From: Arenicella sp.
GTDB taxonomy: Bacteria > Pseudomonadota > Gammaproteobacteria > Arenicellales > Arenicellaceae
Length of the DNA: 33,992 nt
NCBI GenBank assembly: GCA_023301745.1
Contig: JALZVW010000044.1
Span: forward strand, 1-33,992
Reading direction: 5' to 3'
The position numbers and the translations under genes were made by a program. The notes beneath the pieces were generated by a model. It was not told the DNA's origin. It saw only the letters and a program-made list of their open reading frames with translations, and did not search any database. Positions 21,814 through 27,780 of the stretch are shown here, one piece after another (positions within the stretch are counted from its first letter, which is position 1; every line of letters starts with the position of its first letter).

Positions 21814-23544
21814 TTAGTCGAGCCCCAAACGTTTGAGCCCCTGCAAAATCAAATCGGCACTTTCCCCAGTTTCATTCATTAATTTATCAAGCAATGATGC
21901 CTGAATGTCAGCGCCAAGTTTATGTGCCATGGCCAGCTCCAGTGCTTCAAACACGATTAGCCAATCAATGTCATCTTGCTGGATCAGGCGGTTGACCAAC
22001 GCAGTCGGATCCTTATCTCCATCGCGCGTATCGCGTAGTTCCGAATAAAATGTAAACAGAGCTCGCTCTTCAGCACGAAGGCTTACATCAGTATGTGCGC
22101 TTAGCGAGGGCGTTTCGTAAATTGGGTATGCATCTTGATCGGCCGAGCCGCCACTGACCGATATTACCGAGTCGCCAACGGCCATGTCGAAGATACCCCA
22201 GCTTGGGTCGAATAGTATATTTCCATCGACATCGTTTACCGTGCACTTGTCAAAACTTAGAAGAATATTAGTTTGCCCACGGCGTAACAAATTGATCAAG
22301 GTTCCTTGCACCGTGATACCCGATAAAAATCGCAGTGTCGCCGGTTTACCAATTCTAATTCCATGACGTTTTAACTCGTCTACGCTGTAGCGCGATAAGC
22401 ATCGTTCGACACCAACTAGTCTTCCAATCGGCGAGCCAAAACCTTCACCATGGTAGTCAATTCCATGGCCTTCAAGCTCGGTGCCGTTCAAGGCAAGTTG
22501 GGTTGGCCCTTGAGTATTAACATAGATCGCATTGCCGACGGCATCGCATAGTACTCGGCTGATCTTTCCTGCAACCTGTAAGCCTGAATTCATGGTGAAA
22601 GTGACAACAGACTCGGCTTCTTGTGCTTTTATTAATGATGACGAACCACCAGCATTACAGCACATATGCCGCCCGTATTCTTCTAGCACATGGCTCAAAT
22701 GCCGACACGACTGGGTAACGAATAGCTGTGGTTGTTGGGCGGTAATGTCGTAGGCTGTGTTAATTGAATTGATGGTCAGTACTTTCTTGTTGACCAGTGA
22801 ATCGTCTAAGCAGCTCTGGCTTTCCGATAGAGATGACAACAAGCCAGCACCGAAGATTCGATAATTTTCAACCTCGCCGACTAAACCATATTCAACCGTC
22901 CACCAGTGTAGCCTGGCCAATAGGTTTGCTTCAGAGGGCACCACTTTGGTGTTTTGTAGTTCTTCTACCGCTTGTTCGGCTTGTTTAATCTGTTCAAGAC
23001 TAGACTCGGTATTTTCTTTTACGATGGAGAGTTCACGAACTGCTTCATAGTGATTCATGTCGTGTTGGTTAGCGATCGCTCGCATTCCTAACTCACCAAA
23101 ACGCTGCAAAAATTCGGCGTAATCAATGTCAATCAAAAAGGGTGCATGCCCCGCGGATTCGTGAATGATGTCCGGTGCCGGGGTGTACAGCATGTGCTCG
23201 AAAGAGCGAATATTGACCGCGATTGCTAATACCCTAATCGCTTGAAATTCCATAAAAACAGCAGGAGGCAAAAAACCATCGACCGCGACAGCACGCCAGC
23301 CAAGCTTGTTGAGCCGTTGGTTTATATCTTCCAAACGAGGAATTTCTTCGAAGCCAATACCGGTTTTTTCTAAGCCTTCAAAATAGGTATCGTGAGCCGC
23401 GTCTTTCAAACTATAAGCCAATTGATGAATTAGAAAGCGCCAGATAGCGTGATCACGTGGGGTGTAGTTAGTATAGTCTTGCGTCGCGACAAACGGTTGT
23501 AGGTGCGGCGGCAGGCTCTGGATGACGTCTAGTTGGCTTTGCAC
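21814..23544 (-). CDS. phhA: Aromatic amino acid hydroxylase (phenylalanine 4-monooxygenase), long form
   Basis: The enzyme converts Phe to Tyr using O2, iron and a pterin. The catalytic domain is clear in residues 20-245: YTPRDHAIWRFL, PDIIHESAGHAPFL with iron ligands H128 and H133, and HWWTVEYGLVG with the third ligand E218. At 576 aa it is about twice the usual bacterial enzyme (about 260-300 aa): the extra C-terminal 330 residues look beta-rich and have no domain I recognise. A helical insert rich in Glu and Gln lies at about 172-205. The start is GTG at 23544, with no strong Shine-Dalgarno sequence. It is the last gene of the tyrosine-catabolic operon. Confidence 0.88.
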   Translation of the reverse strand: MQSQLDVIQSLPPHLQPFVATQDYTNYTPRDHAIWRFLIHQLAYSLKDAAHDTYFEGLEKTGIGFEEIPRLEDINQRLNKLGWRAVAVDGFLPPAVFMEFQAIRVLAIAVNIRSFEHMLYTPAPDIIHESAGHAPFLIDIDYAEFLQRFGELGMRAIANQHDMNHYEAVRELSIVKENTESSLEQIKQAEQAVEELQNTKVVPSEANLLARLHWWTVEYGLVGEVENYRIFGAGLLSSLSESQSCLDDSLVNKKVLTINSINTAYDITAQQPQLFVTQSCRHLSHVLEEYGRHMCCNAGGSSSLIKAQEAESVVTFTMNSGLQVAGKISRVLCDAVGNAIYVNTQGPTQLALNGTELEGHGIDYHGEGFGSPIGRLVGVERCLSRYSVDELKRHGIRIGKPATLRFLSGITVQGTLINLLRRGQTNILLSFDKCTVNDVDGNILFDPSWGIFDMAVGDSVISVSGGSADQDAYPIYETPSLSAHTDVSLRAEERALFTFYSELRDTRDGDKDPTALVNRLIQQDDIDWLIVFEALELAMAHKLGADIQASLLDKLMNETGESADLILQGLKRLGLD

Positions 23545-23593
23545 GGATTCTGTATCAGTTTAAGGGTTATGGGCGGTATAGAAAGTTCGAATG

Positions 23594-24226
23594 CTATTGG
23601 GCATCGGTTTGTTGTTCTGGCGCGGCTTTAGCGAATGCGGGTAGCTTCAAGCAGTCTTGATTTACCCGATTGATGGTCGGATAATTTTCCATTGGGCAAT
23701 CAAAGCGATGCGCATTATAGACTTGCGGTATAAGACAAACATCGGCGACGCTAAGATCGTCTCCAGCACAAAAATTACCCGCACTTTGCGCTAAGCGTTT
23801 TTCTAGCGCGCTAAACCCAACGGCGATCCAATGGCGGTACCATTGTAATTTGTTATCGTCGCCAACGCCCATTTCATTGCCTAAATATTTTTGCACCCGT
23901 AGATTATTCAACGGGTGGATGTCGCTAACAATGGTCTGTGCCAGCGCTCTTACATAGGCCCTTTGAACGAGATTTTCAGGCAGCAAGTGGGTCTGCGGAT
24001 AAGCCTCTTCTAGATACTCAAGAATGGCCATAGATTGAGTAAGATAGTCGTCGCCAACTTGTAAGACTGGCAGTAAGCCATCTGGGTTTAGTGCTAAAAA
24101 CTCAGTTGATTTTTGCTCACCAGTGAATAAATTTAATGGCAAAAGCTCATGTTCAATACCCTTAAGGTTTAACGCTATGCGAACTCGATAAGCCGCCGTG
24201 CTACGAAAATAGGTGCTTAACTTCAT
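23594..24226 (-). CDS. maiA: Maleylacetoacetate isomerase (zeta-class GST)
   Basis: The enzyme isomerises maleylacetoacetate to fumarylacetoacetate with glutathione. From ATG 24226 the protein has 210 aa and begins MKLSTYFRSTAAYRVRIALNLKGI, the zeta-GST motif (usual form SSCS/SSA near residue 9-12). The C-terminal helical domain carries QTIVSDIHPLNNLRVQKYLG and FCAGDDLSVADVCLIPQVYNA. A longer frame from 24286 would overlap the upstream VOC gene; the chosen start lies 4 nt after its stop codon, consistent with translational coupling. Next step in the pathway is FahA, encoded in the same operon. Confidence 0.93.
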   Translation of the reverse strand: MKLSTYFRSTAAYRVRIALNLKGIEHELLPLNLFTGEQKSTEFLALNPDGLLPVLQVGDDYLTQSMAILEYLEEAYPQTHLLPENLVQRAYVRALAQTIVSDIHPLNNLRVQKYLGNEMGVGDDNKLQWYRHWIAVGFSALEKRLAQSAGNFCAGDDLSVADVCLIPQVYNAHRFDCPMENYPTINRVNQDCLKLPAFAKAAPEQQTDAQ

Positions 24227-24230
24227 GCCG

Positions 24231-24776
24231 CTAATCCGCTGCTTCAGAGTCGGTCTTATGAAGCCATGCCGCGTGTTTAGGGGCACGTTTGGTTTTTGAC
24301 CACTCGTCGAGCATCTCCCATTTGACGCTATCTAAACGGTTGAGTTTGGCTTTTTCTGCGGCATCAGGCGCAGCTAATTCAAGGCGGTGACCGTTGGGGT
24401 CAAAGAAATAGATCGAATGAAAGACCGAGTGATTGGTGACACCGAGTACCTCTACGCCGTTACCCTCTAGGTGGGCTTTATATTCCAATAAGGTCGCCAT
24501 GTCTTTTACTTTAAAGGCGATGTGTTGCACCCATTCTGGGGTATTTTCGTCACGCCCCATTGTCGGTTTGGTTGGCAGCTCAAAGAACGCTAGAACATTA
24601 CCCTGCCCGGCATCCAAAAACACATGCATATAAGGGTCAGGTTCTTTGGTTGACGGCACTTCGTCTTCGGCGATGGCGAGCACGAAGTCCATTTTTAAAT
24701 TTTCGACATACCATTCAACTGTCTCTTTGGCGTCATGGCATCGATACGCTACGTGATGAATTTTTTCGATTTTCAT
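24231..24776 (-). CDS. VOC-fold metalloprotein (glyoxalase/dioxygenase superfamily) in the tyrosine operon
   Basis: The 181-aa protein has the paired beta-alpha-beta-beta-beta modules of the vicinal-oxygen-chelate fold. The four expected metal ligands are present: H8 (KIHHVAYRC), E66 (LAFFELP), H85 (EWVQHIAFKV) and E133 (HRLELAAP). The set H/E/H/E matches glyoxalase-type isomerases, whereas extradiol dioxygenases of this fold usually use His-His-Glu. It lies between fahA and maiA, 14 and 4 nt away, so it is co-transcribed with them. Its reaction is unknown. I considered whether it replaces the absent homogentisate dioxygenase, but nothing in the sequence shows that. Confidence 0.8.
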   Translation of the reverse strand: MKIEKIHHVAYRCHDAKETVEWYVENLKMDFVLAIAEDEVPSTKEPDPYMHVFLDAGQGNVLAFFELPTKPTMGRDENTPEWVQHIAFKVKDMATLLEYKAHLEGNGVEVLGVTNHSVFHSIYFFDPNGHRLELAAPDAAEKAKLNRLDSVKWEMLDEWSKTKRAPKHAAWLHKTDSEAAD

Positions 24777-24790
24777 AAGCTAAACTCCGG

Positions 24791-26113
24791 CTACTCGATT
24801 TCAAGCGCTGGCAGCACAGTGGCCGCGGCATGGCCAAAGCCTATACGAGGTGCCGTTTCAGAATCGCACCAGCCGGTCAGTGTCACTGTGTCGCCGTCTT
24901 CTAAGAAAGTGCGTTGTTCGCCGTTACTCAAGTTGATCGGGTTTTTACCGCCTTGGGTCGCTTCTAACAAGGCGCCAACACTCTCGGCCGTGGTGCCAGA
25001 TTGAGTGCCGCTGCCCAAGAAGTCGCCAGGCTTTAAGTTGCAGCCGTTCACCGAGTGGTGCGCCACCATTTGTGCGACGGTCCAATACGACTGATTAAAA
25101 TTGCTCAAGGCTACTCGTTCGGCGGCGTGGCCATCGGCTTTCATCTTTGCTGTTTGCAGTAACACTTCTAGATGCATATCAACCGCGCCGACGTTACGAT
25201 TATCGTGCGACTCCAAATACGGTAAGGGTTGTGGGTGGTCGCTTGGGCGTGACCATGCTTCTCGATACGGCGCTAGAGCTTCCATGGTAACAATCCATGG
25301 AGACACGGTTGAGGCAAAGCTTTTTGATAGAAACGGGCCAAGCGGTTGGTATTCCCAAGCTTGGATATCGCGTGCAGACCAATCGTTGAACATGCACAGA
25401 CCAAACACATGGTCTTCGGCTTGATTGATACCGATTGGGTGACCCATGGCATTGCCCTTGCCGATATAAATACCCACTTCTAACTCGTAGTCTAATCGCT
25501 TACAGGGTGCTAATACTGGAGTGTCGGAGTCAGGCGCTTTGAGTTGGCCGTGCGGTCTATGAAAACCGTGGCCTGATACTTCTATCGATGAGCTTCGGCC
25601 ATGGTATCCAATCGGTATCCACTGGTAGTTTGGCAACAGAGGGTTATCGGGTCGGAACAGTTTGCCAACGTTTGTCGCATGATTTATCGAGGTGTAAAAA
25701 TCCGTGTAATCGCCAATTCGGGCAGGCACTTTATACTCGGCCTGAGTCTGTGGTACCAAACAGTTCTCTAATAGCGCTTGCGAGGGTGACCCTTCTCTCA
25801 AAGCCTGAGACAATTCAAGTCTCAGCTCTGACCAAGCACCTTTGCCCATGCCCATAAACTTATTGAGCTTCGACTTATTCAGTGTTCTTAGCATCGGTGT
25901 AAGCGACATACTAAAAACGCCAGCTTTGTGAGCGGCTGGCAAATCGACGATGTGCTCCCCAATCGCAACCCCTGCGCGAAACTTCTCATTGCGGCCATGG
26001 CGTCTAAATATCGAAAATGGCAGATTTTGAATCGGAAAATCAGTCTGCTGGTTGTTGGCCGATGCCACCCAACTGCGTAACTCCGGTTGATGCGTTTCGT
26101 TTAATTGAGTCAT
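24791..26113 (-). CDS. fahA: Fumarylacetoacetase
   Basis: The enzyme cleaves fumarylacetoacetate to fumarate and acetoacetate, the last step of tyrosine breakdown. The 440-aa two-domain protein has an N-terminal SH3-like domain (about 1-125) and the catalytic fold. Residues equivalent to mouse FAH are visible: metal ligands D138 (DYTDFY), E210 and E212 (DYELEVGIY) and D244 (FNDWSARDIQ), catalytic H145 (INHATNVG) and K264 (LSKSF). WIPIGYHGRSSSIEVSG is a further signature. It is cytoplasmic. It follows hppD by 37 nt. Confidence 0.96.
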   Translation of the reverse strand: MTQLNETHQPELRSWVASANNQQTDFPIQNLPFSIFRRHGRNEKFRAGVAIGEHIVDLPAAHKAGVFSMSLTPMLRTLNKSKLNKFMGMGKGAWSELRLELSQALREGSPSQALLENCLVPQTQAEYKVPARIGDYTDFYTSINHATNVGKLFRPDNPLLPNYQWIPIGYHGRSSSIEVSGHGFHRPHGQLKAPDSDTPVLAPCKRLDYELEVGIYIGKGNAMGHPIGINQAEDHVFGLCMFNDWSARDIQAWEYQPLGPFLSKSFASTVSPWIVTMEALAPYREAWSRPSDHPQPLPYLESHDNRNVGAVDMHLEVLLQTAKMKADGHAAERVALSNFNQSYWTVAQMVAHHSVNGCNLKPGDFLGSGTQSGTTAESVGALLEATQGGKNPINLSNGEQRTFLEDGDTVTLTGWCDSETAPRIGFGHAAATVLPALEIE

Positions 26114-26150
26114 GAGTTTCTCGTTTAACTAATCATTTTAAAATGGTTGG

Positions 26151-27227
26151 TTATTTGCCGCTGATTACGCCGCGTTCAATCTGGTCTCGCTCGATTGATT
26201 CGAATAAGGCCTTAAAATTACCTTCACCAAAGCCGTCGTCTTTCTTACGTTGAATAAACTCGAAAAACACGGGGCCAATTAAAGTGTCAGAAAAAATTTG
26301 TAATAACAAACGTGGGTCGCCATCTTCGGTGCTGCCATCTAATAAAATACCGCGCGACTGAAGCTCTTCAAGTGGCTCGCCATGGTTTGGCAAACGCTCT
26401 TCGAGCATCGAGTAATAGGTGTCAGGTGGCGCGCTCATAAAGGGCATGCCGCGTGCTTTAAGCTTGTCCCAACACTCGATTAAGTTATCGCAAGAGAAGG
26501 CAATGTGTTGAATGCCTTCGCCGTTATAGGCCATTAAAAATTCTTCAATTTGGCCGGTTTCTTTCGACGCTTCTTCGTTCAAAGGTATTCGAATAAGGCC
26601 ATCCGGCGCACTCAGTGCTTTAGAGGTCAAGCCAGTGTACTCGCCCTTAATGTCGAAAAAACGAATCTCTCTAAAGTTAAATAAACGTTCGTAGAAGTCA
26701 GCCCAGTATTGCATGCGGCCACGGTACACATTGTGAGTTAAGTGATCGATGACATCAAAACCACAGCCTTCAGGCTTGCGGTCAACACCGTCGATAAACT
26801 CGAAATCTATATCGTAAATCGACGTGCCTTCTTCAAAACGGTCAATCAAATACAAAGGAGCGCCGCCAATACCTTTAATGGCTGGCAGGCGTAATTCCAT
26901 TGGGCCGACCGGAATATCGACTGGCTGAGCACCGAGTTCAAGTGCGCGCTCGTAGGCCGCTTGAGAGTTTTTAACTCGAAACGCCATGCCGCAGGCCGAG
27001 GGGCCATGCTCTTGAGCAAAGTAGTAGGCGTTACTCGCTGGCTCGTAGTTGATTAGTAAGTTAATGCCACCTTGACGATATAAGTGAACATTTTTTGAGC
27101 GATGCTCGGCTACTTTAGTGAAGCCCGACATTTCAAAAATAGGCTCTAAGACACCCGGTGTGTTCGACGCGAATTCAATGAATTCAAAGCCACATAACCC
27201 CATTGGGTTTTCAAATAAATCAGACAT
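26151..27227 (-). CDS. hppD: 4-hydroxyphenylpyruvate dioxygenase
   Basis: The enzyme converts 4-hydroxyphenylpyruvate to homogentisate with O2 and Fe(II). The 358-aa protein is of the usual bacterial length. The iron ligands are H162 (VIDHLTHNV), H241 (GIQHIAFSC) and E323 (VFFEFIQR), corresponding to H161, H240 and E322 in the Pseudomonas enzyme. The C-terminal [18 protein letters not shown] is the family tail that closes the active site. It is the first gene of the catabolic operon, reading away from the MarR gene, with repeated TAGTTG motifs between the two. Confidence 0.97.
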
Positions 27228-27270: not shown

Positions 27271-27294
27271 CAAATATAGTTGTAGTTGCAACTA
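27254..27294. promoter_or_regulatory. Candidate MarR operator region
   Basis: The perfect palindrome TAGTTGCAACTA (27283-27294) lies just before the MarR gene. Related sequences ATATAGTTGCAA (27254-27264) and ATATAGTTGTA (27274-27284) are spaced 20 bp apart. The array covers the hppD promoter, as expected for a MarR-type repressor that also controls itself. Confidence 0.6.
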
Positions 27295-27303
27295 AATGCA
27301 AAT

Positions 27304-27780
27304 ATGAATCAAAAATCCTCTAAACACCCGTCAGTGTTGACACTCGAGCGCTTTTTACCTTATCGCTTATCGATACTGTCTAATCGTATTAGTGAGATCA
27401 TCGCCAAAACATATCGCGACAAATTCGCTTTATCGATCACCGAATGGCGAATTATGGCGGTATTAGGAGAGTATCCTGGTGCCTCGGCGGATGAAGTGTC
27501 AGTTAAGATTCAAATCGAAAAATCGATCGTTAGCCGAGCGCTGCAAAAACTGTTAGCGCGGCACTTAGTGAGCCGCGAAGTAGACGACGCTGATCGCCGG
27601 CGCCAGAATCTAACCTTGACCCAAACTGGCTTAGAAATCTACCAACAGGTTGTGCCGGTCTCTTATGACTACGAAGATCAGCTGCAAGAGTGTTTTAGTA
27701 AAAAAGAGCGTGATCTTTTCAACGGTTTGATCGACCGCTTATATGCACATTCTGAAAGCATTGCCCTAAAGACCTCGTAA
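27304..27780 (+). CDS. MarR-family transcriptional regulator of the tyrosine-catabolic operon
   Basis: The 158-aa winged-helix protein has the family pattern: a dimerising N-terminal helix ([24 protein letters not shown]), the DNA-binding block [48 protein letters not shown], and the wing [20 protein letters not shown] 27304 was chosen; an in-frame TTG at 27286 lies within the operator palindrome and is unlikely. No clear Shine-Dalgarno sequence precedes the ATG. Divergence from hppD and the shared palindrome suggest that it represses the operon and responds to a pathway intermediate, as HmgR-like regulators do; the ligand is inference. Confidence 0.88.

Follow-up and report, generated by a model that had tools for sequence, protein, structure and literature searches.

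A VOC-fold protein as the probable homogentisate 1,2-dioxygenase of a phenylalanine and tyrosine operon in Arenicella sp.

HmgA, the homogentisate 1,2-dioxygenase covered by PF04209, has a cupin fold that is unrelated to the VOC fold. A VOC-type homogentisate dioxygenase is already known from one PDB deposit, is hardly described and is covered by no NCBIfam equivalog. The deposit, 9U42 from 2025, is entitled 'Crystal Structure of Homogentisate 1,2-Dioxygenase from Acinetobacter in Complex with Zn ion', and its protein shares 95.4% identity with the VOC protein from an Acinetobacter baumannii operon. Here we analyse a stretch of 33,992 nucleotides from Arenicella sp. (assembly GCA_023301745.1, contig JALZVW010000044.1, positions 1 to 33,992; the window), which carries a phenylalanine and tyrosine operon that has no hmgA and encodes a 181-aa VOC protein between fahA and maiA. 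Gene content and comparative analysis indicate that this protein very probably serves as the operon's homogentisate 1,2-dioxygenase, on a VOC fold and presumably with Fe(II), in place of the unrelated cupin HmgA.

The Arenicella protein is 70.5% identical to 9U42 over 173 aa and joins this known kind because the deposit names the function. A model predicted from 43 sequences (pLDDT 90.3) comprises two babbb modules and, at the C terminus, a helical tail; 9U42 is its closest match by a wide margin (Z 20.7, root mean square deviation 1.6 over 166 residues, TM 0.86/0.92), with the next match at Z 16.4. This model, built on a deeper alignment, replaced a first one with a pLDDT of 69.6 and a deviation of 16.2 on 9U42. 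Besides the fold, the Arenicella protein shares with the 9U42 type its encoding beside homogentisate-pathway genes, but the A. baumannii locus has an IclR regulator where a MarR regulator is found here, and the order here is HPPD-FAH-VOC-MAI-PAH (4-hydroxyphenylpyruvate dioxygenase, fumarylacetoacetase, VOC protein, maleylacetoacetate isomerase and phenylalanine hydroxylase). The genomic argument given below was reached independently of the title of 9U42, and agrees with it. Support from this analysis comes from gene content, the absence of HmgA from the genomes examined, slot exchange, residue conservation and the predicted fold.

The source genome is a 3.05-Mb draft of 191 contigs that is 95% complete. 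The genes concerned are as follows.

26151..27227, minus strand: hppD, 4-hydroxyphenylpyruvate dioxygenase, 358 aa, which yields homogentisate (TIGR01263, 392.9 bits, cut-off 277)
24791..26113, minus strand: fahA, fumarylacetoacetase, 440 aa (TIGR01266, 542.5 bits, cut-off 375.3)
24231..24776, minus strand: VOC-fold protein, 181 aa, proposed homogentisate 1,2-dioxygenase (9U42 identity, HmgA slot swap, residues, model)
23594..24226, minus strand: maiA, maleylacetoacetate isomerase, 210 aa (TIGR01262, 277.4 bits, cut-off 171.05)
21814..23544, minus strand: aromatic amino acid (phenylalanine) hydroxylase, long type, 576 aa (NF010657/PRK14056, 645.1 bits, cut-off 346; PF00351)
27286..27780, plus strand: MarR-family regulator, divergent from hppD (PF12802/PF01047)

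The five minus-strand genes follow each other in the order hppD-fahA-VOC-maiA-phenylalanine hydroxylase with short gaps: hppD and fahA are 37 bases apart, fahA and the VOC gene 14, the maiA ATG comes 4 bases after the VOC stop, and 49 bases separate maiA from the hydroxylase open reading frame. The maiA start was moved from 24286 to 24226, the start of the earlier-listed reading frame being too early. That hppD, fahA, maiA and the hydroxylase stand in one operon, as the original prediction had it, is confirmed, and all four exceed their curated cut-offs. The VOC protein is above cut-off for PF00903 alone (55.4 bits), reaches none among the NCBIfam models and has no PF04209 domain, by which cupin HmgA is recognised. 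In the proposed pathway, phenylalanine would be converted to tyrosine by the hydroxylase, then to 4-hydroxyphenylpyruvate and, by HppD, to homogentisate; the VOC protein would cleave homogentisate to maleylacetoacetate, which MaiA would isomerise to fumarylacetoacetate and FahA would split into fumarate and acetoacetate. The metal, substrate and product in Arenicella sp. are those that we infer from these comparisons.

The absence of HmgA from the operon, already seen in the first reading of the window, extends to the whole draft genome, in which neither PF04209 nor a profile of divergent HmgA finds a match. PF04209 likewise has no match in the 18 genomes of the genus, which are part of an order sample of 109 genomes with nine matches. 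The second profile was searched because PF04209 hardly detects one divergent form of cupin HmgA, about 376 aa long and situated next to HPPD in 13 of the 16 class-sample genomes that had looked empty of HmgA (L140-L143, L150, L153-L159, L161); PF04209 gives this form 20-28 bits in four of the 13 and no match at E 0.001 in the remaining nine. Built from seven sequences (profile A2), the dedicated profile has no match in the 18 genus genomes. Three of its controls (G131, G209, G427) are rows of the profile itself and so not independent; independent positives are G480 at 660 bits and a weak 50-bit match to classic HmgA in G297. The earlier suggestion that HmgA quite likely sits elsewhere on the chromosome finds no support in the 95% complete draft or in the genus, and a divergent HmgA overlooked by Pfam was rejected for the genus. 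An HmgA-like domain (42% to HmgA) lies in a 1017-aa open frame of G068 (L041:5025-8078), which may reflect a fusion or an unusual start site.

Across the order sample, VOC matches are bimodal: among 48 matching genomes, 21 score at least 240 bits (at least 62% identity) and the others at most 94 bits. The latter, weak paralogues of at most 38% identity, were excluded from orthologue counts. Orthologues occur in 21 of the 109 genomes and HmgA in nine, with no genome carrying both; three genomes (G024, G025, G038) have HmgA together with a weak VOC paralogue. Within the genus, 14 of 18 genomes have the orthologue, the other four being only 78-85% complete. Fumarylacetoacetase is above cut-off in 17 order genomes, 14 of which have the VOC orthologue without HmgA and two (G025, G038) HmgA without the orthologue; in the last (G009) the contig ends inside fahA.

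The class sample comprises 370 genomes, 60 of them HPPD-positive, and was graded by score (classic HmgA, E < 1e-60; VOC strong, at least 280 bits, or intermediate, 150-158 bits). Classic HmgA is found in 34 of the 60 (two of these, G206 and G361, counted despite an in-frame stop), divergent HmgA beside HPPD in 13, VOC in ten (eight strong, two intermediate) and none of them in three. VOC at 150 bits or more never accompanies classic HmgA (0 of 10 VOC genomes, against 34 of the 60; hypergeometric 7e-5, a value that ignores kinship and is not a probability of function), and a 99-bit VOC paralogue stands alongside HmgA in G297. TIGR01266 fumarylacetoacetase is above cut-off in 14 genomes, seven with HmgA and seven with VOC. 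The VOC genomes span six families, and in two of these (f27, f134) a sister genome has cupin HmgA instead. Two near-closed genomes, G199 and G305, which count among the seven with fumarylacetoacetase and VOC, have neither cupin type, and their intermediate VOC form lies apart from HPPD and FAH.

The two enzymes also take the same place in otherwise matching operons. HPPD-HmgA-FAH-MAI (G038) corresponds to HPPD-FAH-VOC-MAI in the genus, and HPPD-divergent HmgA-FAH340-MAI (G134, G141, G156, G263, G291, G402, G427; FAH340 is a 340-aa FAH-family gene) to HPPD-VOC-FAH340-MAI (G256) and HPPD-VOC-FAH340 (G341). The exchange recurs in a second pathway, where PaaK-MBL-FMO-HmgA-FAH340-MAI (G054, G055; L039, L040; FMO is a flavin monooxygenase of PRK08132 type) stands against PaaK-MBL-FMO-VOC-FAH340 (G071), with flanking identities of 59-62% for PaaK, 52-54% for MBL and 38-40% for FMO; in G070 the second-pathway operon stops after VOC at the contig end. 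Cupin HmgA, classic or divergent, thus shares with the VOC protein an operon slot and, we propose, a reaction. Ideonella has hppD-VOC-fahA. On a conjugative IncFII plasmid of Enterobacter sp. JBIWA005 (L174), VOC-MFS transporter-FAH-maiA lies between transposase genes; in the 16.5 kb read, VOC is the sole annotated ring-cleavage candidate and no hppD is annotated. The fahA-VOC-maiA order, whose conservation the original prediction raised as a check, is that of the genus loci; A. baumannii has fahA-maiA-VOC. A replacement of MaiA by VOC was considered and rejected, as the genus and A. baumannii carry both genes together. In G071, the 340-aa FAH-family gene that follows VOC (L030:5323-6143) is split over two frames by a frameshift or assembly error.

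Profile-profile comparison with four catechol 2,3-dioxygenases (hhalign probability 97%) places H8, H85 and E133 of the VOC protein on conserved His, His and Glu in the C-terminal half of those enzymes, and H116 and Y123 on conserved His and Tyr. In those enzymes the first three positions are the metal ligands and the other two acid-base residues. All five are invariant at the sequence level in 99 of 99 orthologues and in five of five distant rows (four distinct genes), whereas E66, at the fourth glyoxalase-type ligand position, is Asp in one of the 99 and in two of the five. The H/E/H/E set noted earlier is indeed present (H8, E66, H85, E133), but the view that it is glyoxalase- or isomerase-like loses ground: the residues matching catechol 2,3-dioxygenases never vary and E66 does, and the solved relative, 9U42, is deposited as a homogentisate 1,2-dioxygenase. 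By analogy with type I extradiol enzymes, Fe(II) would be held by H8, H85 and E133, homogentisate would bind via its 2-hydroxyl with O2 at a neighbouring site, and H116 and Y123 in the second sphere would assist while the C1-C2 bond is cut.

Other VOC-fold enzymes are more remote. Catechol 2,3-dioxygenase (TIGR03211) has the VOC domain, the aligned triad and the His and Tyr in common with the Arenicella protein, but is about 305 aa long against 181 aa with E66 and a proposed para-diol substrate; against the equivalog cut-off of 320.2 bits the VOC protein scores 32.9. Glyoxalase I, FosA and FosB share the fold and the H/E/H/E pattern (Z 13-15.6), yet the best glyoxalase and Fos models stay below cut-off (FosF 43.8 against 280, YaeR 37.9 against 140) and the context of the VOC protein is ring-cleavage operons. 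The L-DOPA dioxygenase of Streptomyces sclerotialus (6on1/6on3; Z 14.2) is likewise a small VOC-fold ring-cleaving dioxygenase, but with 16-18% identity and a catechol-type substrate. The second-best PDB profile match after 9U42 is 1zsw (E 2e-17), with HH and Y...E motifs in common; 1zsw (338 aa) and MhqO (3oaj, 335 aa) are double-VOC proteins with two VOC units, unlike the 181-aa protein here. Both are presumably kin to the PcpA and LinE hydroquinone dioxygenases. Homogentisate is a substituted hydroquinone, so that, given this presumed kinship, cleaving it on a VOC fold would have precedent.

A one-genome-per-species scan yielded at least 592 related stretches, of which the best 80, 75-88% identical, were examined as named loci; they come from Pseudomonadota (alpha, beta and gamma), Acidobacteriota and one Myxococcota metagenome-assembled genome. 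The typical joint cluster, in roseobacters and rhizobia, is HmgA-FAH-MBL-FMO-VOC-MAI, again with a PRK08132-type monooxygenase (L062, L064, L075, L080, L086, L099 and similar). Fifteen of the best 80 loci have VOC and HPPD and no HmgA in the stretch; 12 of these genomes, many of them metagenome-assembled, lack both cupin types, and three have a cupin elsewhere (L056 and L120 classic, L074 divergent). PF04209 was not found in 24 of the 76 judgeable named genomes, one of which (G480) has divergent HmgA. In a VOC tree, whose bootstrap is unsettled and whose labels come from stretches of unequal length, neither the HmgA-bearing clusters (15 changes, at least 8 forced) nor those with the monooxygenase (20 changes, at least 12 forced) group as a clade, VOC of both operon types being mixed; the HPPD label is clustered (9 changes against a shuffled mean of 23.4).

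Several of these and other observations weigh against the assignment of the VOC protein as homogentisate dioxygenase. HmgA is in the same stretch as VOC in 27 of the best 80 loci and, with 25 more found by genome search, in 52 of the 76 judgeable genomes; because alphaproteobacteria often cluster both, VOC and HmgA are not exclusive overall, and strict exclusion, which held in the order and class samples, was rejected. Whole-genome searches find neither VOC nor classic or divergent HmgA in three HPPD-positive genomes that are 96-99% complete (G162, G196, G441), so an HPPD gene alone need not imply one of the enzymes known so far. VOC does not adjoin hppD in G230, nor do the distant VOC genes in G199 and G305; the second-operon monooxygenases compared share only 38-40% identity, and many of the genomes compared are drafts or metagenome-assembled. 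On the structural side, the function of 9U42 comes from the deposit title alone, the bound metal is Zn and the chain still goes by the name Glyoxalase, and the catalytic His in the PHDIAF stretch of catechol 2,3-dioxygenase has no aligned counterpart in the VOC protein. Finally, according to excerpts of a 2020 paper (PMC7646211), the A. baumannii copy probably has no dioxygenase activity; the gene so judged is, by its place, apparently the VOC gene. As an aside, G196 keeps HPPD-FAH340-MAI together with neither HmgA nor VOC.

Part of this pattern would be explained if the VOC protein were a ring-cleaving dioxygenase mainly for another hydroquinone, the product of the PRK08132-type monooxygenase, with homogentisate as one of several substrates or an acquired one. 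The monooxygenase accompanies VOC in 25 of the best 80 loci with HmgA and in 23 without, the tree interleaves VOC proteins from the two operon types, and the double-VOC 1zsw is the nearest profile match after 9U42. We nevertheless consider this unlikely for the operon studied here: homogentisate is the sole substrate expected in an HPPD operon, and HmgA fills the same slot in the monooxygenase operon (L039, L040), which suggests that this operon also ends in homogentisate. For alphaproteobacteria, the VOC protein may be either a second homogentisate dioxygenase or an enzyme for another hydroquinone. A broader proposal is that VOC-fold homogentisate, or more generally hydroquinone, dioxygenases are a widespread and unannotated second class that was repeatedly swapped with cupin HmgA in two upstream pathways, and that in the joint alphaproteobacterial clusters VOC cleaves another hydroquinone made by the PRK08132-type monooxygenase; taken as a whole, we offer it as tentative, with doubt prevailing.

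An accessory role, in which VOC detoxifies benzoquinone acetate or isomerises an intermediate and an HmgA missed in the draft cleaves the ring, was one of two options in the original prediction. The incompleteness of the draft, the 27 joint loci and a glyoxalase fold with all four glyoxalase-type ligand positions filled speak for it. It is made improbable by the lack of either HmgA type in all 18 genus genomes and three chromosome-sized A. baumannii records, by the occupation of HmgA's slot, by the plasmid island and by the title of 9U42. The other option, that VOC performs an unassigned step, gains support, and the step can be named as putative homogentisate ring cleavage. A broken pathway in Arenicella sp., with homogentisate excreted as pyomelanin as excerpts of PMC7646211 propose for a pigmented A. 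baumannii strain, is scarcely credible, as fahA and maiA are retained downstream in its own operon and in the genus loci, and the pigment is described, in the portions available, as rare in A. baumannii although the three records there have no HmgA.

Those A. baumannii records (L170, L172, L173) are listed as plasmids in PLSDB and are chromosome-sized (3.66, 3.97 and 4.09 Mb). Each of them carries hppD together with VOC, and none matches the classic or divergent cupin HmgA profile. The A. baumannii VOC gene is 70% identical to that of Arenicella and lies in the order fahA-maiA-VOC, iclR, hppD. If the assignment of VOC as homogentisate dioxygenase is right, it accounts for the lack of an hmgA homologue in A. 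baumannii reported in the same excerpts (PMC7646211). Other papers may touch the locus. A table of biofilm-changed genes, as excerpted from PMC3758355, contains the A. baumannii fumarylacetoacetase, isomerase, 'glyoxalase' and HPPD together, with a first ratio of 24 to 79. A pigmented strain with a transposon in 'hmgA' loses the pigment on complementation in the excerpts of PMC9431530, from which it could not be settled which gene is meant. The 'hmgA' reference of PMC11945678, as far as it is described in the parts seen, has 633 bases, 14 of them shared with the fahA reference; it is probably maiA because size and overlap match A. baumannii maiA. Except for PMC7646211, our search, outside which lay most subscription journals and preprints, found no publication on 9U42 or a VOC-type homogentisate dioxygenase; the word 'homogentisate' is absent from the main text of the GapMind paper (PMC9007349) and occurs once, in the reference list, in PMC12718150.

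If true, the assignment would close an apparent gap in tyrosine catabolism for A. baumannii, several betaproteobacteria and, by extension, Arenicella-like gammaproteobacteria. Genes now called 'VOC family protein' would gain a testable function, with the at least 592 stretches of the scan as the field, and a small VOC enzyme cleaving a para-diol could usefully be compared with cupin HmgA, in which a different fold carries out this chemistry.

Some minor observations concern relatives and neighbours of the VOC gene. A distant VOC group (33-46% identity; L138, L139, the same gene in L168, L148, L149) keeps the same catalytic residues, and in G199 the distant gene adjoins one for a flavin monooxygenase that is 34% identical to the PRK08132 type. 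In family f12 (L031-L035), a VOC gene of 62-66% identity and a 340-aa FAH-family gene are arranged tail to tail, with no HPPD in view, and in L031-L033 the VOC gene is near homoprotocatechuate-type genes. Within the window, the Biopterin_H domain of the 576-aa phenylalanine hydroxylase is confined to the N-terminal part. The MarR gene probably regulates the operon, and it also adjoins hppD in five other genus loci (L042-L046).

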